From [Phialemoniopsis] sp. UDSM-2020 (lineage: Eukaryota; Ascomycota; Sordariomycetes; Thyridiales; Thyridiaceae): 64,000 bases of DNA. Below are positions 2,089 through 52,629 of this stretch, piece by piece. Numbering within the stretch: position 1 is the stretch's first letter; each line of letters starts with the position of its first letter. Where the stretch lies: assembly GCA_018873225.1 (NCBI GenBank), contig JAEILZ010000007.1, forward strand, positions 1,488,001-1,552,000. The letters are read 5' to 3'. The notes beneath the pieces are model-generated. The model had not been told where the DNA came from. It ran no database searches and saw nothing but the letters and a program-made list of their open reading frames with translations. The position numbers and the translations under genes are program-made.

Positions 2089-3156
2089 ATGATGGAGGGA
2101 GACCAGAGATCCGCAAACGCTGCACCGCAGCAGCCACAACAGCCACGACAAGAGGGTAGCGGCGCACAGAGACAGGATGGCGATCGGAAGCGACGGGCCG
2201 GAGCGGAGCCCGAGGGACATGAGCAGGCATTTGCTCAACGCTGGGAACGGGCCCAAGCGGCTTTGGAAGAGATGGCCGAGAACTTCCCTGGTCCCATTGA
2301 TCTACCCGGTCGAAATCAAGGTCAACTTGAGCCTCAACAAGTCGTTTCGAACCGCAATGGCAGGGGAGACGGAGACAAGACCAACTTCGGCGAGTACTTC
2401 ACCACGTACGGCAGTTACTGTATAAAGTTCGATCGCAATGCCGCCGGCACAGCGGCGATGCACCTCACCGAGACCTGTGTCGAGGTTGTAAAGCAGGATC
2501 GAGTAGCAACAATCAGTGTGAATCTACAGCACCGAGATGTTGAGAAGTTCCGCCGCAACAGGCAGATCGAAGTGATCCCCAAGGAGGAGATGGTCCAGGA
2601 GCTCCCTTGGCCGCCGCTCATGCCCACAAGGTGCGAAAACCCTGCGTGCCCTGAGAACAAGCGAAGCACGCACACCCTGGCAGACTGCGCCGGACCGCCG
2701 CTTCGAGAGGGGGACATGCCAGGTTGCTTCATGTGCGAAACTACGCAGCACTATTTCGACAACTGTCCATTCCGGGAGAAGTGGAGCATGGATCAGATCT
2801 GGCGAAACATGGTCGCTAGAAGGGCTTTGCTGCCGCCCTTCAGAACACGAATCGATTGGGCAGAGATCGCGGCAAGATACGCGGCTGTACCGGACCAAAT
2901 CCTCCCTCTTACGAAGTCATTTGTGAGGCAGTATTACGTTCCGGCAAGGCCCTGGACACGGTACATCTACGGGACCAAGGATAAGAGCTTCCTAGCCGTG
3001 GATGCAAGGACACAAAACATCCAGAAGTTGTGGCAGAGTTGTGAAGACAGGCAGGACTTGTGGAACGAGACTTATGAAGGTCTACCTTTACTACAGAGAT
3101 TTCCGGATCTCGACTGGGAACAGATCCTCGCCGTGGATCCTCGCGTTCGACTCTAG
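2089..3156 (+). CDS. Tandem zinc-knuckle protein, paralogue 1
   Basis: Single exon, 355 residues, starting at the tandem ATG ATG at 2089. The N-terminus is Gln/Arg-rich and polar. The core holds two knuckles: a variant C-x4-C-x7-H-x4-C (about residues 183-201, ending HTLADC) and a canonical C-x2-C-x4-H-x4-C (about 216-229, CFMCETTQHYFDNC). A conserved block containing LPPFRTRIDW follows. The paralogue at 6818 shares both knuckles, the LPPFRTRIDW block and the PARPW segment downstream. CCHC knuckles usually bind single-stranded RNA or DNA, or mediate protein contacts. Together with the degenerate helicase next door this suggests an RNA-related role, but that is inference. I do not recognise a named family. 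Confidence 0.8.
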   Translation: MMEGDQRSANAAPQQPQQPRQEGSGAQRQDGDRKRRAGAEPEGHEQAFAQRWERAQAALEEMAENFPGPIDLPGRNQGQLEPQQVVSNRNGRGDGDKTNFGEYFTTYGSYCIKFDRNAAGTAAMHLTETCVEVVKQDRVATISVNLQHRDVEKFRRNRQIEVIPKEEMVQELPWPPLMPTRCENPACPENKRSTHTLADCAGPPLREGDMPGCFMCETTQHYFDNCPFREKWSMDQIWRNMVARRALLPPFRTRIDWAEIAARYAAVPDQILPLTKSFVRQYYVPARPWTRYIYGTKDKSFLAVDARTQNIQKLWQSCEDRQDLWNETYEGLPLLQRFPDLDWEQILAVDPRVRL

Positions 3157-3940: not shown

Positions 3941-6268
3941 ATGTCGGCAGCACGTTCGACACGGGCTCAAGCCCTTTGGGAGCCTGAGCTGATCAAGGAT
4001 ATACCGTTGGTTGGCCGCAATTCCGTCAGGCTGAGCGGAATACACTGCACTCGCGGCATCTTCTCGCGAGTCAAGCTTCTTGCAGAGATATTCCAAGTGG
4101 CGAATGCGGACAAGACTCATTCCATCCTTTATGTCGTCGGTTCGGAGGCAGAGATGGGTTACATGCAGTACGCCTGGCGCGACTCGCTTGAAGAGCCATT
4201 GAATGCGGCGATCTCGACAGGCTGGGAGACGAATGGCCAAGCACCGACGGATGTTGTGCGCATTATCACCTACGAAATGCTATTCGACGCCTTGAAAGCT
4301 GGAGGGGCTGGACTGGCCGCCGACCTTATCTTGCTCATGGAATTAGAGGGCGATCGAACAGTCTCTATGGAGATGTCGTTCAGTCTTCTACTCGAATGGG
4401 CTCGCAAAGCCAAGAACGAGCGCAAGCCGTCATTACATTTCGTCCTTGTGTCCAACTGCAGGGAGACAAAGGCATGGGCTAGCAAGATGGCTGAGACGCA
4501 CTTTGGCCTGAAATATGACACTGGTTCATTCACCTGCCCTCTTCCCCGCCTTGAAACCCAAGAGCTTCAGAACTCGACTCCAGTCTACATGGCAAGAAGA
4601 CTGTGGAACCTCTTGGGCCGAATTGCATTGTTAAAGGACGAAGGAAAAGGACTGGAAGTAGCATTGTCTTCGTACAGGACACAGAACGAGGAGCCAGATG
4701 CCAACGATACAAGGGACGGACAACCTCGGAGGAATGAAGAAGAGGTGACACCAGCAAGCGCGGAAGAACAAGTACCAGAGCGGCGGCCAAATGACCCTGC
4801 CATTGCACTTATCATGGGAGAGGACCAGTTCGATGATGTCGTGGATGCATTAGATGGTCTTGGCCTATTCAACCCCATCCGGGTCGAGATGCACCGGAAC
4901 TCGAAAGCCAAGCTCGTCTACCACAGCTGCACAAGCGGTGTGGGACTACGGATTCTGCATGTCGCCCCCGAGGCGGCCTTGGTTTGGTCCAAGGTCGCTG
5001 GTCTCGTACACGTAATCATTGGTCACCATCGGGATGGAGTAGTCTGGAACACCGCCCTGAAACAGCACATCCATGAAAAGATGCTCCTGTCGGAGGCAGA
5101 GCTCTGCAACATCAAAAGCATGGCGGAAGGCACCTCCTACACTGATCCCAACAACCAGAACGTAAGCTTTAGTATGAAAGTTCAGTATACTAGGGGCCCG
5201 GGACGTCTACACGATATTCCACAGCCTTCTCTGTCAAGGGCGCATCAGCTGCAGCATTTCGTATTCGAGATGGCGAGGGCTTGGCCGCATACACCACTCG
5301 CCGAGATGCCGGTACACGATCTTTCGTGCGTTGATGAGCTGGATGAAATACTACGACGGCTGCACGAGACTGGCTGTATCGAGAAGAGCACAGTTGCCGT
5401 GGTGGGAGACCGGGAGCAGACCGGATACACAGTGCCGGACACCTTGCGACGGGCTATTGATCGACCTCTACAGAAACTCCGCCAATTCCAGCCGGCACAT
5501 TTCCTCGCCCTCATGCCCCGCGACGCTTCTGTGACCATGAAACAAGTGATGGTACGAATGGCAGCCCTGATGCTGCTCCGACGCGGGCCGGCCGCCCTGG
5601 TCGAGTTCGACTGGGAGAAGTACACCCACACGGTACCGCCAAACCAAGTCTTCGAGATCCTCTTCCCGAAGACACCCGCCATGACCCATGCAACCCGGTC
5701 CATGCTATGGCTGTGCGTGGTGCTATTCGACGGCCTCGGACAGTCGAGTGATGGAGTTGCCGACCCTCTCGAGACAGAATGGCTGAATGGAGGGATCCGC
5801 GCGAATCCCCACGCCTACGCCCAAGCCCGAGAGGCTGTGCAGAAGTTTGAGCTCCGTGGCGGCCTGGGCGGCCTCCCTTACGAATATGGCGAACACGCAA
5901 GATTGACTGCAGGGGAGGTACTGACAATCGAGAAGTGTCTGGTGCGAGCCTACCTGTTCAACTTGGTGGAAGTGCACCCCAACTATAAGGCGTTTGACTA
6001 CGCGTCCGGGCAGGAACTCATTGTCACCAAGGCCCGCACACTGCAGAAGCTCTCGCCGAGCATCAACGGAGAGGTGCGCCTCGCGGTTCAGTTTGGCATC
6101 ACCAAAGGCGAGTTTGATGGAAAGGGGGCGATGCTTGTTGATGTCATTATCTTGGTATCGAGAGAGGCGGTTGAGCAGGTCGTTGATGATCTTAACGAAC
6201 TGAGGTGGAAGCGGGGCTACCGGGGTCCAAAGGCCACGCTCAAGGAGATTGTAGCTCCTAGCCACTGA
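3941..6268 (+). CDS. Degenerate DEAH-box helicase-like protein (probable pseudoenzyme)
   Basis: Single exon, 775 residues. The overall order follows DEAH/RHA helicases with the catalytic signatures eroded. RIITYEMLFDAL sits where motif Ic (YMTDGMLL type) belongs. LILLMELEGDRTVSMEMS replaces the DEAH box and its ERT extension. LHFVLVSNCRETKAWASKM sits at motif III (MSAT). LRILHVAPEAALVWSKVAGL sits at motif V (ATNIAETSLTI). SLSRAHQLQHF replaces the QRxGRxGR motif VI. The C-terminus (about residues 655-700, IEKCLVRAYLFNLVEV) resembles the ratchet/OB-fold tail. No Walker A GxGKT is visible, so ATP hydrolysis is unlikely. A disordered acidic insert of about 50 residues separates the two RecA-like halves. 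It is flanked by the two zinc-knuckle paralogues. The family assignment is by eye. Confidence 0.65.
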   Translation: MSAARSTRAQALWEPELIKDIPLVGRNSVRLSGIHCTRGIFSRVKLLAEIFQVANADKTHSILYVVGSEAEMGYMQYAWRDSLEEPLNAAISTGWETNGQAPTDVVRIITYEMLFDALKAGGAGLAADLILLMELEGDRTVSMEMSFSLLLEWARKAKNERKPSLHFVLVSNCRETKAWASKMAETHFGLKYDTGSFTCPLPRLETQELQNSTPVYMARRLWNLLGRIALLKDEGKGLEVALSSYRTQNEEPDANDTRDGQPRRNEEEVTPASAEEQVPERRPNDPAIALIMGEDQFDDVVDALDGLGLFNPIRVEMHRNSKAKLVYHSCTSGVGLRILHVAPEAALVWSKVAGLVHVIIGHHRDGVVWNTALKQHIHEKMLLSEAELCNIKSMAEGTSYTDPNNQNVSFSMKVQYTRGPGRLHDIPQPSLSRAHQLQHFVFEMARAWPHTPLAEMPVHDLSCVDELDEILRRLHETGCIEKSTVAVVGDREQTGYTVPDTLRRAIDRPLQKLRQFQPAHFLALMPRDASVTMKQVMVRMAALMLLRRGPAALVEFDWEKYTHTVPPNQVFEILFPKTPAMTHATRSMLWLCVVLFDGLGQSSDGVADPLETEWLNGGIRANPHAYAQAREAVQKFELRGGLGGLPYEYGEHARLTAGEVLTIEKCLVRAYLFNLVEVHPNYKAFDYASGQELIVTKARTLQKLSPSINGEVRLAVQFGITKGEFDGKGAMLVDVIILVSREAVEQVVDDLNELRWKRGYRGPKATLKEIVAPSH

Positions 6269-6750: not shown

Positions 6751-6774
6751 TTGACAACTCACATTTTTGTCAAA
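6751..6774 (+). promoter_or_regulatory. Second copy of the TTGAC-N13-GTCAA element
   Basis: Opens TTGACAACTCAC, then a T run, then GTCAAA. It matches 2036-2059 in sequence, arm length and spacer length. It ends 43 bp before the ATG at 6818. Confidence 0.45.
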
Positions 6775-6817
6775 GCAGAGTTTCCAAATCAGAACAGCAT
6801 CGCGAGCGCCAGTGGCC

Positions 6818-8533
6818 ATGGAGCGAGATCAGGCACAGCAACACGGCGCAGAAGCCCAGGACGTGGGCGCTGGTGTCCTGTCTCAGAATGTTGGTGCCGG
6901 AGGAGGAAATGGGCAGAGCAACGAGGTTCAAGATTCTGCCGCAGCTGTTGCTTCGGGACAGGGCAAGATCTGGAGACGTCCATCTGGGGATCAGCCGGCG
7001 GGAGATGAACAGACGGACAATGGGCGTCAACCGTGGCTCGGCCCGGTTTTTAGTTCTGGAAATTTGAAGGCGAAGACATATGGCCCCATCGGAATTATTC
7101 ATGATGGAAGCCTACGAGATCAGAAGCAGGGAACCCTGGTCATGGAGTGGAGAGCGGGCGCGGATGCTCAGGTTTCCGAGACGGACAACAACAAATTCGG
7201 CATTTTCCTGGCCAATTTTGTTACGAGCCGTATGAGAAATATGACGCCGAACCAGCACGCTACGCTCACCTTGAACGTGGGGGACTGGCCCGATTTCGGT
7301 ATGCGGAGCCGCAACCGAGGCATCCAGGAGGAACCGAGTCCGCCCGCGCCGTACCCGCCACCAAAGGCTACACGCTGCGCCAATTTCAACTGCAAGCAGC
7401 AGGACAGCCACACGCTGGCGGACTGTGCCGGACCGCCGTCGGCCTACGGCGACATGACGGGTTGTTTCATGTGCGAGGTTATGGAGCATCGCTTTGAGGA
7501 ATGCCCGTACAGGGAGCAGTGGTCGCTCGTCGACATGTTCGAGAACATGATCACCAGACGGGCGTCGTTACCGCCATTCAGGACGCGGATCGACTGGGTG
7601 GAGATCGCAGTGGCAGTTTTCGGGGATAATCTTGGCGAGAGAGCGTACCCCTTGCGGAAGTTCTTTGTCAAGCAGTTCTATCTCCCGGCCAGGCCTTGGA
7701 TGGGGTACAACTACCACACCAGGGACAAGCTTGGTATGCCCCTCGATCGGGGTACTATGGCCACCAATGCGCTGTTCGCGACCGTGACCAACACGCAGCA
7801 CAAGTGGAACGAGGCATTCAAGCGTCGTCCTCTAATCGTCCGATTTCCCGGTCTTATTCTCGACGAGATGATGAGCGCGGATCCTCGAGTGCACGAGCGA
7901 CAGGACAATGGAGGCGTGGCTGGCGGCAACGGAGCTGGTGGCAATGGCCCGCGCCTCTTTCGCTATCAAGCCGGAGGAAATGCGGCTCGAGGAAACGCAC
8001 CCGTGGCCAACCCGTTTGGTGGCATGGGGCGGTTTGGACAGCGAGCTGCAGGCAATGTACAGGGTGGAAATGCTGCCCCGGCCAACCCGGCTGCTGGCAA
8101 CGCAGCACCGGTCAACCAGGCTGCTGGCAACGCAGCACCGGTCAACCAGGCTGCTGGCAACACAGCACCGGTCGCCCCGGCTGGCGGCAACGGCACGGGA
8201 CTCTTTGGGCAGACAGCTGGTAACGCACCGGCGGCCAACACTGCTGGTGGAAACGCGCAAGCGGCCAGCACGGCTGGTGTAAATGCGCCGGGAACTAGCA
8301 CTGCTGGTCGGGGTTTGTTCGTGTTCGGAAATCAGGGTGGTGGAAACGAACACGGGTTCAACTTTGCGGCTTCGCTCGGTGCCACTACCGGTGCTGGAGG
8401 TCAATTGGGAGGTGGAGGATCCGGCTCCAATATCCGGGTGCCTCCAGGTCCGCTGGGTGCTGTTCCGACAAAGAAGTCTACACGCCGCGACAAGAATCGC
8501 GCTACTGAAAACCCCGGTTCTAACGGTATGTGA
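6818..8533 (+). CDS. Tandem zinc-knuckle protein, paralogue 2, with Gly/Asn/Ala repeat tail
   Basis: Single exon. The first true ATG in frame is at 6818 (MERDQAQQHG), giving 571 residues. The core matches the paralogue at 2089: knuckle C-x4-C-x5-H-x4-C ending HTLADC, then canonical CFMCEVMEHRFEEC, then LPPFRTRIDW. The last 200 residues or so are a low-complexity tail absent from paralogue 1. It has AAGNAAPVNQ repeats with scattered FG pairs (FGGMGRFGQ, GLFGQTAG), reminiscent of FG-nucleoporin or phase-separating sequences. The tail ends in a basic patch (KKSTRRDKNR). Nucleic-acid binding by the knuckles is family knowledge; the role of the tail is inference. The DNA repeat inside is listed separately. 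Confidence 0.78.
   Translation: MERDQAQQHGAEAQDVGAGVLSQNVGAGGGNGQSNEVQDSAAAVASGQGKIWRRPSGDQPAGDEQTDNGRQPWLGPVFSSGNLKAKTYGPIGIIHDGSLRDQKQGTLVMEWRAGADAQVSETDNNKFGIFLANFVTSRMRNMTPNQHATLTLNVGDWPDFGMRSRNRGIQEEPSPPAPYPPPKATRCANFNCKQQDSHTLADCAGPPSAYGDMTGCFMCEVMEHRFEECPYREQWSLVDMFENMITRRASLPPFRTRIDWVEIAVAVFGDNLGERAYPLRKFFVKQFYLPARPWMGYNYHTRDKLGMPLDRGTMATNALFATVTNTQHKWNEAFKRRPLIVRFPGLILDEMMSADPRVHERQDNGGVAGGNGAGGNGPRLFRYQAGGNAARGNAPVANPFGGMGRFGQRAAGNVQGGNAAPANPAAGNAAPVNQAAGNAAPVNQAAGNTAPVAPAGGNGTGLFGQTAGNAPAANTAGGNAQAASTAGVNAPGTSTAGRGLFVFGNQGGGNEHGFNFAASLGATTGAGGQLGGGGSGSNIRVPPGPLGAVPTKKSTRRDKNRATENPGSNGM
8091..8180 (+). repeat. Intragenic 30-bp minisatellite
   Basis: Two identical 30-bp units (8091-8120, 8121-8150) and a diverged third. 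They encode the AAGNAAPVNQ-type repeat in the tail of the zinc-knuckle protein and are a multiple of three, so copy-number change would keep frame. Confidence 0.85.
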
Positions 8534-12962: not shown

Positions 12963-15941
12963 TCAATGGTTGACTTCAATTGCATCGGGAGGTCTTACTG
13001 GTGGCTTATCACGAGGCTCCCCCTTGACGTATCTCACCTCGCCACTGTGCGTATCCCAGTCGCCGACCTGGCAGTGCGGCAACTTTGACGTATCTCGATC
13101 CTTCGTCGACCACCGCGTGTCACCGGCAGTGATCTCAATGTCGTAACCCAACGCCCCATCGCCACGCTTCTTCGCCTTCGGCTTGGCCTCTCCCTCCAGG
13201 AAGAGCAACTCGATCCCGTACGGTAGAGGGTCGTTGTGGGGAAGGACCAATTTTTCGCCATAGTTCCTAGGCGTCTTGTTCTTATCGTCGAACATGTAGA
13301 GGAGGGTGTCCCTGCTGTCGTAGATCGTAATCTCGGCGTACCACTGGTGACCCTTACCTTCCGAGATGGCCTGCTCCTTGATGTGGATTCTGCACTGCTC
13401 AGTTGGCTTGGGCGGCGGGGGCGGAGCGATGTCCTTACCCGAGAGGGTCGGGCCGATGCACATCGTGGCTCGAATACCTGCATAGACGGCGGTCGAGAGA
13501 GATGTGCAGAGCTGCACATTGCCAGCGAGGTCTGTGGTGGTGAATGGCAGGGGTGGCTCGGTCGGCTTTGCGGGTGGAGGAGTGATTGTCGACGGGCTGT
13601 CCGTTTTGCTAGGCGCCTCAGTCGCTGTCTTTTCCTCGGTAGCCGTTGGTTGGCTTGTCTCCGGCGCCGAGGACTTATTGTCTTGAAGCGGGCACGCGTC
13701 GCGAGCGTTCAAGCCCCCAGGCTGTCCAGGTGTGAAGATCTGGTTCTGAGCTGGGTCCCACTCTTTTTCACTCCGAGACCCGTCCTCTCTGTTCATCAGC
13801 CGTCCCTCAAACCATATTCGATATTTGGCTTTGCCTTTGCAGTCGGCGGCCGGCTGATACTGTACCAATAGCTTCCCGTTTGCAACTTCATAAGCATAGT
13901 CTGGCTTGTTCTCATCTTCGATCGGCGCATATGGGGAATATCTGATCTCGTGGATGGGGACGTTGTACGGCTTAAAGACAAAGTCCTTCAGTTCCTTGAC
14001 AATGTTGCTTACGCGAGGAAACTTGAGCTCCATGGTCTGCGCTTCAACAATGCCCTGCCCCTCATCCATAGTAGGCGTCACTATATAGACCTAGATAATA
14101 ACTGTCAGCGTGTGAAGGTATCTAAGAATCAAAACTGAAGATGTACTTCTGGCGCTGCGTCATCATTCAACATTTTTGACAGGTTTTCGAGACCTGGTAT
14201 GGGCTGATACCCGTCGGGGGTGTCTTCTCGAAGGTTCAGAATACCCATCTTATGAGCTGGACCTATGCCGTAATAAAGGGGCGTGATTGCGCCTGCTTCG
14301 AAGTCGGCTTCTGAGGACGGTGGTGCTTGTTTAGTGATCTTGTCGACTCGATACTCGAAGGTAGGCAACTGCCAGATATGCAGTGCGAGGACCTGACAAG
14401 TATATATAGTCAGCGTTGTCGAGAGAAGAAAGAAGGGCAAGAACAACACTCACGCCTCTTTGAGAAATGACCACCAAAGCTGTGCACCCATAAAGTCCTT
14501 GCACCGCCAGTGTGTCCGGCACCCCCCGAAAGGGGAAGGAATTCGACGTGGTCTGAGGGAAACGTATGTTCACATGCTGATTCCTCGAGTATGCCAGAGC
14601 AACTTCACCGCGGAAGAAATCCTTGTCTGTTCCAATATAGTTCGCCGGCTCGGCCCAGGAGCCAGCAGCCGGCGGCGTGTCGCGTTGCGGGGCGCGGGCT
14701 GGCTCCGGCTCAGACGGTCGCTGCTGTTGCTCGATCCTCGGCGCAAGGTTCTATACAATCAGTTAGCGCACACTCGTTGCAATCTTCAAAGAGTCTGGAT
14801 CAACCTGAGAGTTCAGGTCAAGTTATTGACTCTAACTCCGACTAACTAGTCTAGGCAGTGGGATAGTTCGGGTGAACAGAGTACCTACCTGAGACTTGTC
14901 GGAATGTTCAAAATCCCTCTTTCGCTGAGGACAAACAGCACCTCCAGCACACGGCCCACCTACTTCGCATTGTAGCGGGTAATATGTAGCTGTCGCAGAC
15001 GCCGTAGAGGTGACGACGCTTGCTGTAGCCGAGCATCCGGTGACGGTACGGTATGCGAGGGTGGAACAGTCCTTGTCCCGTTTCTGTAAAGCTGGCTGAG
15101 ATGCTGCTGCAGTGATGGTGGTGACGGTAACAGTACAGAAAACACTCTCCCAGGTGGCAGTCACTGTTTCGGCACAGGAGTCAGATGAAGTGGATGTCGA
15201 GGTTGTGGATTTGCTGGCTGTCGAGGTCGGTTCCTCTGACTTTGAATCGTCATCATCATTCTCATCTTGATCGTCCTTGTCGTCCTTGTCTCCATCTTTT
15301 TCTTTGTCGTCTCCCTTCTTGTCGTCTCCGTCTTTACCACCACCACCACCACCGCCGCCACCGCCGCCACCGCCGCCGCCGCCGCCGCCGCCTCCTCCAC
15401 CTCCTTCTCGACTCCCTCCACCACCACCGCCGCCACCTCCCTCACGATCACCTCCGCCACCTCCTCCGCCGTGATCTTGATCTCCATCGCCGTCATCATG
15501 TCCACCGCCGACAACACCCGGTGGACCCGTACTGGCAGGCCCAGACGTTGTGAAGGTCTGCGGTGGGTTTATGACTTCGGTCGGTGTGACAACTTCTGGG
15601 GGCAAAGATGGGGTGCTCGGGTCAGTTGGTGCAACAGGAGGACCAGTGTCCGTCACGGGGCTGGAGCCGATGAAGCTTGGAGTTGTTGCACTGGGCGCAC
15701 CTTTTGTCGTATCTGCCAAGGTGGGTGGGTTTGTGCCGATAAGGGGGTTCGTGTTGGTGATTGCAGTAGAGCCCAAAACTGAGCCAGGGAGGGTGTAGTT
15801 GGAGGAACTGTTGCTTGGGAAGGGGACATCTCTTGGGATATGGCGTGATAGTCGTGGTGCTTGGAGGGCATGACTCTCAGTCTTGCCATGTTGAACAAGG
15901 GTGAGGGCCAATGACCAAAGCAGCAGATGAGCCAACGCCAT
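12963..15941 (-). CDS. Large secreted protein with poly-glycine linker and conserved fungal C-terminal domain
   Basis: Four exons on the minus strand: 15941-14889, 14750-14454, 14392-14147 and 14090-12963. All junctions are GT-AG and frame-consistent, giving 907 residues. The chosen start (MALAHLLLWSLALTLVQHG) is a clear signal peptide; an upstream non-ATG extension is ignored. Next come a Ser/Thr/Pro-rich stalk, a run of about 23 glycines, an acidic KDGDDKK block and a cysteine-containing segment. The domain starting near residue 380 (DKDFFRGEVALAYSRN, FRGVPDTLAVQGLYGCTALV, APEVYIVTP) resembles one I associate with the C-terminal part of fungal GH18 chitinase-like and related secreted proteins. 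No chitinase catalytic motif is present. A cell-wall or extracellular role is inferred. Confidence 0.75.
15336..15404 (-). repeat. GGN tract encoding about 23 consecutive glycines
   Basis: A GGT/GGC/GGA repeat in the linker of the secreted protein. Its mirror on the plus strand gives a spurious poly-proline frame. It is likely to vary in length between strains. Confidence 0.9.
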
Positions 15942-16717
15942 GCTCAATATCAAGTCAGTCCCCGAAATCAAATTGAACTGGTCTAGAACCAAGAGCCAAA
16001 TTGCACTGAGAGTAATTGTGCGTAACACACTTTGAATAATTCATTTCAGTCTACGAATTGAACATTCCTTCGACGTGTCTTATATGCATTTCGGACCTCA
16101 AGGACTTCACTAAAGCATGGGTCGATCCTACATTGCAATATTTTGAATCACCAACATCACAACCAGGTAGGCTGTGCTTTGCGTTGTCTAAGTTGGCCCT
16201 GAGATGTTTGTTGACGACTCCACATTGATGACCAACAGTCGAGTGTTGGTGTTTCAGATCAAATCCGCCCCCAATCGGTGAAGGTGATCCCAGCAATGCA
16301 TAACCAACAATCGGAATATTTCAGCATATCGCCGATCATGGCCGCCGGAGGATGGACGGCACAGCTGGTCGACTGATGTTGGCCTGTATGAAATGTAATT
16401 AAAGTAATTGGTGGCCACGGCCCTGGCTACCGAGATTGCTGCAGTTACATTAGCAGTTGTCTCGGCGCTTATGCAGCGCGCGCCAAATTATTTTTAGGCG
16501 CCCGCAGATACGTCAAGCCAAGCCCGAGCCCTGGAGAGCCAACATGAATTGATCAAACACCAACAACCAAGAACCGACACACCATCGTTGCCTAAGCACA
16601 GAATCTCTTTGACTTTCTGAGGTGTAGGTGTGTCCAGCGTAGCTTCCCATTCTTCATTAACGTCATTGCTCAGGGTTCATTTTGGATTTGATACCGCATC
16701 GTCTTTACTACTTTCAA
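15942..16717. other. Intergenic region, divergent promoters
   Basis: No gene supported. It holds the promoters of the secreted-protein gene (left) and the ankyrin gene (right). Confidence 0.4.
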
Positions 16718-24656: not shown

Positions 24657-25001
24657 GCTTCCTATGTATTCATCTACTGTTGTGCTAGGCAGGTGACACA
24701 TCACATTGGCACGTCACATCAGATTGAATTCCACTTCGCTCTTTCCTCTCCGTGCCGAGCATCAACCCGTCATCTCCCCCAACCCCGCATCACAATCCTG
24801 GAATCATCTTGCCTTCACTTGCGTAGTGTCTTTTCTTCATCATTCTCTGGACAAGTCTGAAGAGTAGCGACAACAGGCTTTGAGCCCGGTTATCCCACTG
24901 CCTACAGACAGTTTACACGCGCTCACATTTGAGATTAAAGCAGACCGTACGTGATAACGCTTTGAGTCACAACATTAAACCAATCTAATCAGCTACCATA
25001 G
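24657..25001. other. Upstream region of micro-exon locus A
   Basis: A pyrimidine-rich leader-like stretch at about 24730-24850. No ATG is present between 24720 and 25001, so no start codon can be assigned to locus A. A possible phase-0 exon ends at 24948 before a GTACGTG donor. Confidence 0.4.
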
Positions 25002-25861
25002 TGCTACAACTGCGGAAAGCCGGGACACCTGTCCCGGGACTGTTTTGCCGTAAGTTTGAGTACACCCTCCAGTAACCAGGTTCACCGTACTGATATTATC
25101 ATAGCCTCGCCGGGTACGCCATCGATATTCCGTATGCACAGAAGAGTATTGACATTATGACCCTGTGTGATAGGTTTCTACGTTCCGCGTAAGTGGAATT
25201 TCCCTGCTTCAAAGATGTTGTTTTGGCTAGCTAATACTGGGCAGCAGAACAATCGGGTTTGTGTCCAGATCATCGTTTAAGAAAAGCATTCGATTGTGCT
25301 GATTTCAGGAATAGGACTTCTCCCCGAGATTCCTGCCGCCCGGCCCTGCGGTAAGTACATGTGACTTCTCAATGCTTGAGTATACCGAGTGTCAACCTAG
25401 AACTGACCATAAAACAGATGCGCCAGGTAGGAACTCCTCGTCTTGCACATATAGGTAACTTCACTGTCGACTGACACTGCCAATTGATAGACTACCGCTG
25501 TAAGTAGTCTCGGACAGTACGATCATTCATATATATTACATTGCAGCTAACTTCACTCAAGCTCGCCCCGCCCAAGGCCGCCGACAAGCCTTCGGGCAAA
25601 GTAAGTTGCATTCGATGGACCTGCCTACGGCACTGTATTACTAATCTACGACAGACTACCAAGGAGAAGGCCGAGGTAAGCATAGTTCTGGCCAGATCTA
25701 GTTGAGACTTCTATTCTGGATAACCAAGCTGACCGCGGATTTGTACATAGGAACTCCGAAAGGAGCATTCCGTGAGTGGTTTCAATCGTTGTACGTATTC
25801 ACAAGAAACTAAACTCAGTCAAACGCAGCTCATTGAAGACGAGAAGGCGGCGGCACTTGCC
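25002..25861 (+). pseudogene. Micro-exon CCHC zinc-knuckle locus A, apparently incomplete
   Basis: Eleven phase-0 blocks lie between GT and AG signals, all separated by 47-75 nt introns. They are 25002-25049 (CYNCGKPGHLSRDCFA, one CCHC knuckle), 25105-25113 (PRR), 25174-25188 (VSTFR), 25248-25256 (NNR) and 25315-25350 (DFSPRFLPPGPA). Then come 25418-25426 (MRQ), 25491-25499 (TTA), 25547-25600 (LTSLKLAPPKAADKPSGK), 25655-25675 (TTKEKAE), 25751-25771 (ELRKEHS) and 25829-25861 (LIEDEKAAALA). The last three align with exons 4-6 of the gene at 50023. No in-frame ATG is found upstream. The donor that follows the 33-nt exon in the paralogue is absent here, and the frame runs on to 26167 in unrelated sequence. 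It is therefore probably a broken or remodelled copy. Preserved internal splice signals and frame argue that decay is recent or that an unseen start exists. Confidence 0.55.
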
Positions 25862-26286
25862 CATCACTTAGGCAGTGGGTTAATCTCATTCCAGGAACTA
25901 ATGCCTGGCAGGGGAGCGGGTCGTCACAGGTCTTCGACCTTCGTGCTAGCATGCCCTCCATGGTTACCCATGAGCTGTACTGGAATCACTAGCGTCACGA
26001 ACTGGGTCCTGAGAAGAAATGTGCCACATTACCCGGCGCTATCCTATTCGACCTTGTGTGGGGAATTTGATTGGGAATGGCGACCTTGCAGACTCCAGTT
26101 TAGTGCCTTTTGCTCTCCGTGCTCGGAGTGCGTGGCATCAATCGCAGTCTGCTCCGGGAGGCATTGACGAGCTTATCTGGCTGCGGGCTCATAAGAAAAG
26201 AGATCGATATCATTCCTTGCCGTTCATTGGGAATCGTCTTGGCTGTCACAACCTGTAGGGCAGTACCCCCAAGTCACCGAGCAAAC
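25862..26286. other. Tail of locus A and promoter of SDR gene
   Basis: The open frame of locus A continues to 26167 without similarity to the paralogue. The remainder is leader for the gene at 26287. Confidence 0.35.
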
Positions 26287-49203: not shown

Positions 49204-50022
49204 TCTTTTGGCGGACTAGACTACATTCATTGGGGCCGACGACAGGCGCGCTCAAAAGGATCTACTCTGCAATTTGGGATCAGTATATATGTGTAGGAAA
49301 CTCAGAGGTTTCATGTACATATCCATTTAGATATTCTTGTATATACCTTCCCAAGCTTCTTTGATGAAGTCACAACTTAAATAAGAGGATGACCTTTGTC
49401 ACTCCTGTCTGTGATACCTCCTCAGTACCCCATATCTACCCGAGACAAACACTACATTCTGGCAAGGACGGTGCTAGTAAACCAGGGTTGTCGAATTCCA
49501 GGTACCACTCCGAGCTTCGGCCCCCAAGAGCCTCGAGTGTTTGGCCTTTCAAGGTCTCTGAGGTTATATATCTACAACTGGCCAGAGGGAGAATCCCTGG
49601 GCTGTTGTCTCAAGGTTCCATGTACCAGAAGCACGACGTAAACAAGTGTCAGGGGCTAGGCCAGGTAAGTCGCCACTTTTTTCTCCATGTGCCGGCACAG
49701 AAGGTAGGGATTGGAGGAAAGACCTGTTGTATCAATAAACTGGAAGCCGCCAACCAAGCAGGTCACGGGATTAATGACGATCGTAATGGTAAAGCGCACT
49801 CAATCCTCTGTTCTCACCAGTTTAGTGTGTGTTTTTTTTTCTTTGAAAAAAATTTCATTTTATAAACTGCGGTATGCTACCTACTTAGCTTCTTATCTCT
49901 AGATGGAATGCTTGACTGACTTGAATAGAAACCCCTGATCAACTTCGTAGGATCCCACATCTTGCAGGAATGGCTCACAGAAGCTAACTCGAAGATTGAT
50001 TCTCCAGAACAAAGCCAATACA
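49204..50022. other. Upstream region of micro-exon gene B
   Basis: No certain gene. Further small blocks bounded by splice signals lie just upstream of the assigned start: 49929-49946 (KPLINF) and 50008-50028 (21 nt, NKANTMP). Both are in phase 0 with the gene, so the 5' end may contain more micro-exons, coding or untranslated. A T run lies at 49832-49840. Confidence 0.4.
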
Positions 50023-51035
50023 ATGCCGGTAAGTTAATCACTGTCCTAGCATATATGTTGAATATTTTCTGACCTGTACGTTTCAGAAGACTGTATGTGA
50101 CAGAGATCTGTGTACCAGTATTGAATAATTCTGACCCGTCATGGTAGTGCTGGAACTGTGGCCAAGCCGGGCACCTTGCCGGTGTCTGTCGTTTGGTAAG
50201 TGCAACTACTTTCAAATAGGGTCTACGACTCAACTAAGTGATAATTTGATAGACAACTGCCGAGAAGGCCGCCGTAAGTGTGATCCCTGGATGTGATCTC
50301 ACTGCTATTTTCATATAAATTGACGACAGAGTTGCACATAGCTCCTCAGAAGGGAGTATACCGTAAGCTCATACTGTCAGTGGATGTCGACCAAAAGCTG
50401 AACACCATTGTCAACAAGATCCTCCAAGAGAAGCAGGCCGCGGTTGTCGCGGTGAGTTTTCAATTCGTCCTATCCTCACAAGATGTCTCGATACTAATCT
50501 TTGTTCTACTTAGGAATATGACAAGAAGCTGGCCGTAAGTTTAGAGCATACTACCTTGAGTCTCGATTATGTGCTCATTCTCTCTAAGGATCTGGCCAAA
50601 AAGATCGCCGTATGTGTAATCCTCGATCATTCCACATGGCCATATACTGACAAGTCTGATTGCAAAGGACCTCGATGACTACCTGGCTGTAAGTAACAAT
50701 GCAACATTTGACCTAGGCTATGTGCTGTGTGCTAATAACATTGATCATATCTAGGGTCAAGAAGTACGTTCAACAACTTGATCGCTCAGTTGAAAATAGT
50801 TTGTATTGACGCGTGTAAACGAAGGAACGAGATGCACGACGAGAGGTTAGTATTGATTACCCCTTCCAGTAATCAATGGATCCATCGGAGCTGACTGTCT
50901 ATATGTGCGCAGGCTTTGATCCAAGCCTACCGTGTAAGTCTCCCTTCTTGCTTTAAGTCCAAATCTGTCAAGAACGCCACTGACTTGAATGTCTAGGACG
51001 AGAACGCTGCCGTTAGAAACCCTTGCCTTTTGTAA
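50023..51035 (+). CDS. Micro-exon CCHC zinc-knuckle / coiled-coil gene B
   Basis: Thirteen coding exons and twelve introns of 54-68 nt in 1 kb give 95 residues. Exons are 50023-50028 (MP), 50087-50092 (KT), 50148-50195 (CWNCGQAGHLAGVCRL), 50253-50273 (TTAEKAA) and 50342-50362 (LLRREYT). Next are 50419-50451 (ILQEKQAAVVA), 50514-50534 (EYDKKLA), 50589-50609 (DLAKKIA), 50668-50688 (DLDDYLA) and 50755-50763 (GQE). Last are 50825-50845 (ERDARRE), 50913-50933 (ALIQAYR) and 50997-51035 (DENAAVRNPCLL, stop). Every intron is phase 0 and GT-AG. Seven exons are exactly 21 nt, so one intron falls per seven-residue heptad of the predicted coiled coil. The 48-nt exon is a complete C-x2-C-x4-H-x4-C knuckle. 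A nucleic-acid-binding, oligomerising protein is inferred. The acceptor of intron 5 (50363-50418) is the least certain. Locus A at 25002 is a paralogue. Confidence 0.72.
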
Positions 51036-51243
51036 CTCGAATTGTCTGCACCGGTATTAACTTGACTGATAGAAACGACGACGAGTGGAGTAGACTTTTT
51101 GGGGGGCAAAGGGCCGAAGATCGAGAATTTTTGGGAGCATAATTAAATACAACTCAGTTTTGTCCACAAAGTCGTGTGCCTCGCTCTTTTGCAATAATCC
51201 TTGGGCTTTTCTTGTTTTCGGAAAGTCTCTATACATTGAGACT

Positions 51244-52248
51244 TCATTGTTGATACCTCTCGCAAGCCAGCACACCCGAGATCCACGCCGTATTCACCCC
51301 CCAGCGGTCATCGACCCTGTTATCCATGTCGTCCCAGAACTTGAACACATTATACGGGGTGTCCTTCTTCGACCATGCATGATCACCCCTCTCGCTTTGA
51401 ACATAGAAGTCCTTGATCAGCCAGCCCGCATCTCCTTGTCGAACTTCCACAAAGCGACAACCATGACCGGCAAACTCCACCCTATTCCCGGTAAGAGGCA
51501 TTTCACTCTGCCGCTCGATGCTGTAATCAATGAGCCATATTTCGTTGGTCCAGCAAAGGTCATCCTTCAGGGCTCTTTTCAAGTTCCATATTGCTTTATC
51601 GTTGCGATTTTCTTTCCAATCTGGGTCTGCAGCCCACGAAGGATCAAATTCGAGGGCCACGTGCTTCTTAGAGTCCCAAGAGTAGTTGAAGAAAGGGACC
51701 GAGGCCAGAACCCCCCCACACCAGTCAATACTCGCGAGGTCGAATGGCTGTATGCAGAAGAGATCGAGTGTCGGCACAACTGTGAACGCCTGAAAACGGA
51801 CACTGTCCTTCGACGGGATCAGTCCCATCGCCGGCGCGCCCTTGATACCCATTTCTCTGGTCCCCCACCAAGTTATCTTGCCAGCTAAGTCTCGACGTTC
51901 TTTCCACTGCTGCATCTTCCATCGTTTCTCCATGGCTTCCCGGGACTCCTTGCATGCCGTCCAGAGGCCAGAGTCTATGATGTATGCAGACATGTTTGAG
52001 GATCCACCCCAGTCGAACTTTCTGCCAGCACTTGTTGTCCGGGATGGCGCGGCCACACAGCACTGGACGTAGGTCTCCTGGTGGGCCAAGGCGTACGGTT
52101 TCATGGCCTCCAACTCGGCTTTGTTCTGTTCTTCGAAGACGGTGAAGAAGTGCGCTCCTGGCCGATCTGGTCGCATGGCGAAGTTCCAGATCATATCACG
52201 GAGTTCTCGCGGGAGATAGGGGAACAGATGAAACGTCTCCAACGCCAT
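51244..52248 (-). CDS. 2EXR-domain protein, 334 aa
   Basis: Single exon. The first ATG in frame is at 52248 (MALETFHLFPYLPRELRDMI), giving at once the FPxLPxELRxxIW signature of the fungal 2EXR domain. The rest continues with family-typical segments (SGLWTACKESREAM, ALEFDPSW, ND-rich central part). The molecular function of 2EXR proteins is unknown; they are numerous in filamentous ascomycetes. An upstream extension lacks an ATG. Confidence 0.85.
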   Translation of the reverse strand: MALETFHLFPYLPRELRDMIWNFAMRPDRPGAHFFTVFEEQNKAELEAMKPYALAHQETYVQCCVAAPSRTTSAGRKFDWGGSSNMSAYIIDSGLWTACKESREAMEKRWKMQQWKERRDLAGKITWWGTREMGIKGAPAMGLIPSKDSVRFQAFTVVPTLDLFCIQPFDLASIDWCGGVLASVPFFNYSWDSKKHVALEFDPSWAADPDWKENRNDKAIWNLKRALKDDLCWTNEIWLIDYSIERQSEMPLTGNRVEFAGHGCRFVEVRQGDAGWLIKDFYVQSERGDHAWSKKDTPYNVFKFWDDMDNRVDDRWGVNTAWISGVLACERYQQ

Positions 52249-52629
52249 TATTGCTTCCAGAAGGTAGTTCAATCGCTTTGGAAAAGTGCTGTAAGCTGCT
52301 TTAAAATGAGGTTGAAGAAAGGGATATTGCAGGGAGAGCAAGCTGGAAGATTGGAAAAGGGAGCATCGTTGGCTTTATATAAAGAACCCAATCTTTTCAG
52401 ACATCATTAAGTTTGCAACACCTATGGTTTTAAAATTGGCTCCTATATCTAAGGTAACTTGGTTGTCTTTTGTGTGGTTCAAGTCCTCGGAACCTCAAGC
52501 TTTCCCTGCGCCTAATACGGCTGAGTATGAGTTTCTCAAACGACCTTGAATGCGAAATTGCCTAGGTAGTGGAAGATCCCTTTAAGTTGATCGCTCTCGT
52601 CATATTTCTCGCCATTCGATCGATGTTCA
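52249..52629. other. Intergenic region
   Basis: Promoter of the 2EXR gene and 3' side of the rhodanese gene; nothing else seen. Confidence 0.4.

Follow-up and report, generated by a model that had tools for sequence, protein, structure and literature searches.

Two loci on the forward strand of the window (the whole stretch of 64,000 nucleotides analysed here), designated genes A and B, appear to represent a kind of micro-exon gene outside the described families. They are probably a pair resembling the micro-exon genes (MEGs) of schistosomes, which would encode zinc-knuckle proteins with charged tails and would be spliced by intron definition. We infer from the sequence that both loci are transcribed and spliced, that they share a common descent and that their products have a binding function. 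In the scheme that we favour, genes A and B would be protein-coding and descended from one gene, and their pre-mRNAs would be cut into many exons, mostly of 6-48 nt, by introns of 54-76 nt lying between codons. The spliceosome would take these short introns as units (intron definition), the size of the exons being of little weight, and the tail of gene A would have changed its length through the loss, gain or duplication of symmetric exons.

Predicted exon-intron structure of gene A

Gene A is located at positions 50023-51035 (+), and its best model consists of 12 exons, whose lengths are given in order in Table 1, with a joined protein of 111 aa. All 11 introns of this model are of the GT-AG type, in phase 0 and 54-76 nt long; eight of the ten internal exons are no longer than 21 nt, and all ten are symmetric (3n). 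A preliminary description of this DNA had proposed 13 exons encoding 95 residues. A layout of 13 blocks with 12 GT...AG gaps of 54-68 nt is indeed possible at 50023-51035 (+), although two of the gaps are doubtful, and the 12-exon model is the better one. A YTRAY branch-site match is present in nine of the 12 gaps of the 13-block layout and is lacking in its introns 3, 5 and 7. Its intron 5 (50363-50418) lies within an open frame and is read through in every run of our program, and its exons 5 and 6 (laid out at 50342-50362 and 50419-50451) are probably a single exon of 102 nt at 50350-50451. What the same description had said of a micro-exon coding gene that is coherent on joining and carries a CCHC pattern was borne out, and no match was found among annotated proteins.

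The gene model was calculated with a dynamic program in which donor, branch-site, acceptor and codon scores are combined, without the exons being supplied beforehand. The splice consensus was a general one rather than one trained on this genome, and the codon usage was derived from 4,406 codons in eight long open reading frames of the window. When the isolated locus (49950-51100) was analysed in any phase with introns of up to 400 nt, the full 12-exon chain was obtained at an intron penalty of 2, the same chain with exons 6 and 7 fused through 50535-50588 at penalties of 4, 6 and 8, and the fused chain with the additional loss of exon 10 (50825-50845) at a penalty of 10. An any-phase run on a slightly longer stretch added a 3' exon by splicing from 51031 to 51094-51142. 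In the any-phase mode on the whole window, where gene ends are poorly modelled by the program, gene A was fused with its neighbours into a spurious 21-exon gene, in which the knuckle exon was read in another frame.

The donors of gene A are mostly consensus, and the gene has a start, a stop and an open frame across the 11 junctions. The weak points in its splice signals are AAG at three of the 11 acceptors, one GTTAGT donor and introns 3 and 6, which have no good branch site. The sole reason for taking the stretch 50535-50588 (intron 6) as spliced is its full GTAAGT donor, and the protein would have 129 aa if the stretch were kept. Note that this 54-nt stretch (+), which is stop-free, a multiple of three in length and without a branch site behind its full donor, is a candidate for regulated retention.

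Table 1. Predicted exons of genes A and B and one doubtful intron (positions in the window)
Feature	Positions	Strand	Length (nt)	Residues	Remarks
Gene A exon 1	50023..50028	+	6	MP	Start codon; donor GTAAGT; start-free run extends upstream (run cannot judge start)
Gene A exon 2	50087..50092	+	6	KT	CTGAC branch sites in both flanking introns
Gene A exon 3	50148..50195	+	48	CWNCGQAGHLAGVCRL	CCHC zinc knuckle; zf-CCHC 19.4 bits, cut-off 20.8
Gene A exon 4	50253..50273	+	21	TTAEKAA	Matches gene B exon 25655-25675 at 14/21 nt (marginal)
Gene A exon 5	50350..50451	+	102	KGVYRKLILSVDVDQKLNTIVNKILQEKQAAVVA	110 or 122 nt, with other acceptor, in some any-phase runs
Gene A exon 6	50514..50534	+	21	EYDKKLA	Separate only at penalty 2 on isolated locus
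Gene A intron 6, doubtful or optional	50535..50588	+	54		3n, stop-free; AAG acceptor; no branch site
Gene A exon 7	50589..50609	+	21	DLAKKIA	Acceptor AAG; separate only at penalty 2 on isolated locus
Gene A exon 8	50668..50688	+	21	DLDDYLA	Acceptor AAG
Gene A exon 9	50755..50763	+	9	GQE	
Gene A exon 10	50825..50845	+	21	ERDARRE	Acceptor AAG; dropped at intron penalty 10
Gene A exon 11	50913..50933	+	21	ALIQAYR	
Gene A exon 12	50997..51035	+	39	DENAAVRNPCLL	Stop; from isolated-locus and phase-0 runs
Gene B 6-nt exon	24941..24946	+	6	QT	Counterpart of gene A exon 2; AAG acceptor; start-free run, both modes
Gene B knuckle exon	25002..25049	+	48	CYNCGKPGHLSRDCFA	zf-CCHC 36.4 bits; length, phase and boundaries as gene A exon 3
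Gene B exon	25105..25113	+	9	PRR	
Gene B exon	25174..25188	+	15	VSTFR	
Gene B exon	25245..25256	+	12	QNNR	Or 9 nt from 25248; next donor GTTTGT weak
Gene B exon	25315..25350	+	36	DFSPRFLPPGPA	
Gene B exon	25418..25426	+	9	MRQ	
Gene B exon	25491..25499	+	9	TTA	
Gene B exon	25562..25600	+	39	LAPPKAADKPSGK	By eye, alternatively 54 nt (from 25546)
Gene B exon	25655..25675	+	21	TTKEKAE	
Gene B exon	25751..25771	+	21	ELRKEHS	
Gene B putative exon	25829..25873	+		starts LIEDEKAAALAHHLG	Any-phase runs only, end there 25874

Splice-like motifs in intergenic DNA can align by chance, and such alignments were frequent in order-3 Markov sequences, in which internal exons not exceeding 30 nt were counted as micro-exons. 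Phase-0 models with an ATG start contained at least one of them in 553 of 600 synthetic windows of 64 kb (four in 1 window, three in 4, two in 77, one in 471 and none in 47), and any-phase models contained at least three in 63 of 300. The scores of these models, however, did not reach that of gene A. In the phase-0 null, the single window with four micro-exons scored 9.9 and the best score among genes with at least four exons was 36.2 (a smaller set of 60 windows had a maximum of three micro-exons), whereas gene A has six internal micro-exons and a score of 85.3 in this mode. In the any-phase null (300 windows), up to five micro-exons were found and the leading window scored 44.1, as compared with 85.3 for gene A on the isolated locus. 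In the start-free null, for which the splice thresholds were laxer, the best score among 4000 blocks of 2 kb was 26.3, with at most five micro-exons; the start-free scores were 97.8 for gene A and 77.9 for gene B, with nine micro-exons each. The real window was divided into 126 overlapping 2-kb blocks over its two strands, and outside genes A and B the highest score of any block was 40.8, with no micro-exon. Gene A was thus reached by none of the three nulls and half of the start-free score of gene B by none of the 4000 blocks, and when some 183 kb of real sequence out of 44 Mb, comprising the window, the surroundings of nine knuckles, flanking DNA (40 kb) and 30 kb elsewhere, was scanned in the phase-0 mode, only genes A and B had at least three micro-exons. 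Chance alignment is hardly credible as an explanation.

The program alone is no proof of micro-exons, since in the any-phase mode it also gave four exons of 14-19 nt to a real gene at L044 on the - strand. This gene (L044:6061-7667), which has a HAD-like frame by eye and 13 exons in the any-phase model, is possibly a further micro-exon gene or else a modelling artefact.

The codon log-odds of the joined frame of gene A was +27.4, as against -15.6 and -37.4 in the other frames (stop codons contribute about -6 each), and that of gene B was +16.8, positive in the joined frame only. The GC content of gene A was 53.9% in the exons versus 39.6% in the introns (44.8% in the highest single intron); intron GC lies below exon GC by 14 points in gene A and by 20 points in gene B. 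Phase 0 was found in all 21 listed introns, 11 from gene A and 10 from gene B.

In snoRNA host genes, short introns alternate with numerous short exons, and the layout of both loci resembles theirs. A non-coding host transcript with its function in the introns, such as a snoRNA host gene, is nevertheless very improbable: the highest-scoring Rfam match, to a riboswitch model, reached 20.8 bits (E 0.15) where the cut-off is 35, with 10.5 against 70 at the other locus, the RTGATG C box is found in 0 of the 21 introns, introns of 54-76 nt offer little room, and the exons are in frame and codon-biased.

A second predicted gene of the same build

Gene B (approximately 24941-25873, +), which has the same micro-exon build, lies about 24 kb upstream of gene A. 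It was found through a zinc-knuckle search of its own genome (51 matches), with the knuckle match at 24999-25043. As in gene A, its knuckle exon of 48 nt begins at the first Cys codon and ends two codons past the last Cys; the knuckle exons of the two genes are identical at 29 of 48 nt. The two genes have a head in common, namely a 6-nt exon (KT in A, QT in B) followed by the 48-nt knuckle exon, and the nine gene B exons after the knuckle, of 9 to 36 nt apart from one of 39 (or 54) nt, are listed in Table 1. All gene B exons up to 25771 are in phase 0, symmetric and identical in both modes, and the modes diverge downstream.

The gene model found no ATG path to the knuckle exon of gene B, the first usable ATG being at 25418. 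From this ATG, gene B has three micro-exons, a number reached or exceeded in 63 of 300 any-phase null windows, and a score of 48.3, just above the 44.1 of that null; in the phase-0 mode, four micro-exons were counted, one of which is a doubtful 3-nt exon. The case for gene B rests on its start-free score and on the head in common with gene A. Gene B was absent from the preliminary description, and it strengthens the proposal made there of an undescribed gene class.

The missing ATG path, the lack of a clear end and the weak donor GTTTGT are features that a decaying gene might show, and the search of 5.8 billion proteins yielded no annotated homologue. One or both genes may accordingly be relics, once coding and now untranscribed or decaying, and this could apply to gene B alone. 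We regard this as decidedly unlikely, because gene A has a start and a stop, its frame is open over the junctions, its codon usage is biased and most of its donors follow the consensus, and the exons of gene B are likewise open.

The searches of 5.8 billion proteins for homologues of genes A and B gave 14 candidates, none at E<=1, and 4 candidates, none at E<=10. The method requires 5-residue words in common and a similar length, so that distant or misannotated relatives can escape it. As a control, the neighbouring 2EXR protein (51244-52251, -) yielded 81 relatives, the named ones being fungal and the best from Thyridium curvatum (62% over 92% of the query), so that fungal proteins are represented in the collection. 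The named relatives are presumably sordariomycetes; Thyridium belongs to the Thyridiales (Sordariomycetes), and by this single protein the source of genes A and B is likely to stand close to that order. No homologue of gene A or B was found in viral contigs, and none of gene A in prokaryote genomes.

Within the source genome (44.18 Mb in 11 contigs, of which the window occupies C9:1488001-1552000), the search with gene A gave three matches, two of which were gene A itself and one of which was at E 3.2. Among the eight matches with gene B, three were gene B exons, three were other zinc-knuckle loci, and the remaining two (E 0.24 and 2.1) were without micro-exon chains. No further phase-0 micro-exon chain was detected at the other zinc-knuckle loci (30 loci on both strands, together with 49 kb round nine places); the stretches covered take in 42 of the 51 zinc-knuckle matches. 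Likewise, none of the flanks (40 kb) and three 10-kb stretches elsewhere had at least three micro-exons in phase 0.

Probable splicing mode and the tail of gene A

The pattern CX2CX4HX4C is present in both genes. The score against Pfam zf-CCHC (PF00098; cut-off 20.8 bits) was under the cut-off for gene A (19.4) and over it for gene B (36.4). CCHC knuckles bind single-stranded nucleic acid or protein, and the product of gene A is most likely a small RNA-binding or protein-interaction adaptor with a charged tail. Its N-terminus, MPKTCWNCGQ, is polar and contains no hydrophobic stretch by eye.

The tail following the knuckle is probably helical in the predicted product. It had been described earlier as a charged coiled coil, and of this the charge stands; the coiled coil is weakly supported, since heptad periodicity was nominal in one of the five stretches tested. 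That stretch, EYDKKLA-DLAKKIA-DLDDYLA, spans three exons and would form a nominally regular amphipathic helix (53 of 5000 shuffles). Elsewhere, the periodicity was reached by 958 of 5000 shuffles for the 68-residue tail of gene A, by 667 for the tail with intron 6 retained, by 1890 for the tail of the 13-exon layout and by 3815 for gene B. Helix periodicity was dropped as an argument for the splicing of 50535-50588, given the values for the retained and the spliced tail (667 vs 958).

A survey of 42 eukaryotes, in the part cited here, assigns intron definition to all ascomycetes (PMC2397502). Introns of 54-76 nt should therefore be recognisable as units at any exon size, and the earlier suggestion that exons of this kind challenge the limits of exon definition does not follow. 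According to the same part of that survey, the common variation under intron definition is intron retention, not exon skipping (PMC2397502). Abundant exon-skipping isoforms are thus disfavoured, although symmetric exons would permit skipping. Being symmetric and in phase 0, the internal exons of gene A could be removed, added or duplicated without a frameshift, and isoforms of gene A that differ in tail length through modular alternative splicing are possible.

The six 21-nt exons of gene A have on average 7.47 identical bases, versus 5.42 for random coding 21-mers (0.0005 of simulations). When the codons of gene A were shuffled across or within exons, this likeness was reached in 56 and 41 of 5000 shuffles, respectively, and the best exon pair between genes A and B (14/21 nt) was reached by 289 of 5000. 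No likeness was found among the introns of gene A (two of 55 pairs above z 2.5). Exon duplication in the tail of gene A is therefore a possibility on marginal figures. Duplication of exons together with their introns was not supported, the introns being unlike one another. A more specific proposal appears rather doubtful. In it, each 21-nt exon in phase 0 would encode a single heptad of the helix, and exon duplication in evolution and skipping in the cell would both alter the tail, which follows the zinc-knuckle binding module, by whole heptads with frame and register kept.

These observations also bear on whether genes A and B are ordinary, intron-dense small genes, in which introns were gained in a longer exon, splicing is constitutive, and the 21-nt spacing and the phase have no function. 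The expectation of intron retention over exon skipping under intron definition (again in the cited part of PMC2397502), the mutual dissimilarity of the gene A introns, the resemblance among the 21-nt exons, which is marginal against shuffles of their own codons, and the confinement of the nominal periodicity to three exons would all agree with this view. It does not account as readily for phase 0 in every listed intron of both genes or for a build common to two genes, and we consider it unlikely; our preference remains with the MEG-like pair of zinc-knuckle genes.

Comparison with known micro-exon systems

The schistosome MEGs, as far as the cited passages describe them, encode small proteins mainly from short symmetric exons, the skipping of which leaves the frame intact, and homology searches for them can fail (PMC5825161). 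In the same passages, approximately 80% of their coding region is in exons of 6-36 bp, and almost all of the products are secreted or membrane-anchored (PMC5825161). Genes A and B likewise have symmetric short exons. In contrast, gene A has 147 of 336 nt (44%, stop included) in exons of 6-36 nt, as against the approximately 80% given in those passages, and, unlike the products described there, its own has no hydrophobic N-terminus (by eye) and carries a zinc knuckle. Exons of up to 51 nt contain 234 of the 336 nt of gene A in the penalty-2 model.

The bicycle genes of aphids, in the cited part of PMC9168663, have many micro-exons, with about 17 exons on average and internal ones almost all in phase 2. 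They are described there as putative salivary effectors whose divergence hides their homology (PMC9168663). Genes A and B resemble them, on that description, in having many micro-exons in nearly one phase, but differ in that the phase is 0, the products have a zinc knuckle and the genes are fungal. We set genes A and B apart from these described families because gene A differs from the MEGs in its share of micro-exons and, by eye, in lacking signs of secretion, and both genes differ from the bicycle genes in phase.

Very small exons are also known from filamentous ascomycetes. The NACHT-ankyrin (nank) genes of Tuber melanosporum, in the parts cited, have serial 3-bp microexons with frame-preserving variation (PMC3689799, PMC4986451, PMC10197012). 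On this account, Tuber and the source of genes A and B are both filamentous ascomycetes with serial microexons, whereas the nank exons are codon-sized and belong to NLR receptors, and those of gene A measure 6-102 nt; no NACHT or ankyrin match in Pfam was found in gene A at E<=1. A regulated microexon in Xlr2 of Trichoderma (PMC11121469) and a 1-nt exon in CYP621A of Fusarium (PMC12940212), as reported in the passages cited, also indicate that very small exons are spliced in filamentous ascomycetes. In the cited passages, however, each of these is a lone micro-exon within a gene of ordinary structure, while genes A and B are made of them. The open-access literature contained no fungal micro-exon family of the gene A/B type among the matches listed.

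If transcripts confirm the predicted structures, filamentous ascomycetes would own micro-exon genes separate from the schistosome and aphid ones, and fungal annotation would probably have missed such genes. Genes A and B would then also provide an easy experimental system for the way in which an intron-defining spliceosome handles serial exons of 6-21 nt, and a test case for whether symmetric micro-exons originate through the duplication of exons or through introns gained repeatedly.

Some other open frames of the window were noted in passing. Those at 2089-3156 (+) and 6767-8533 (+) have a Cys/His-rich core in common (DCAGPP...GCFMCE...LPPFRTRIDW) and look by eye like a diverged duplicate pair, flanking a frame of 775 aa at 3941-6268. 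A further open frame at 14832-16028 (-) contains long glycine runs and an Asp/Lys-rich stretch.
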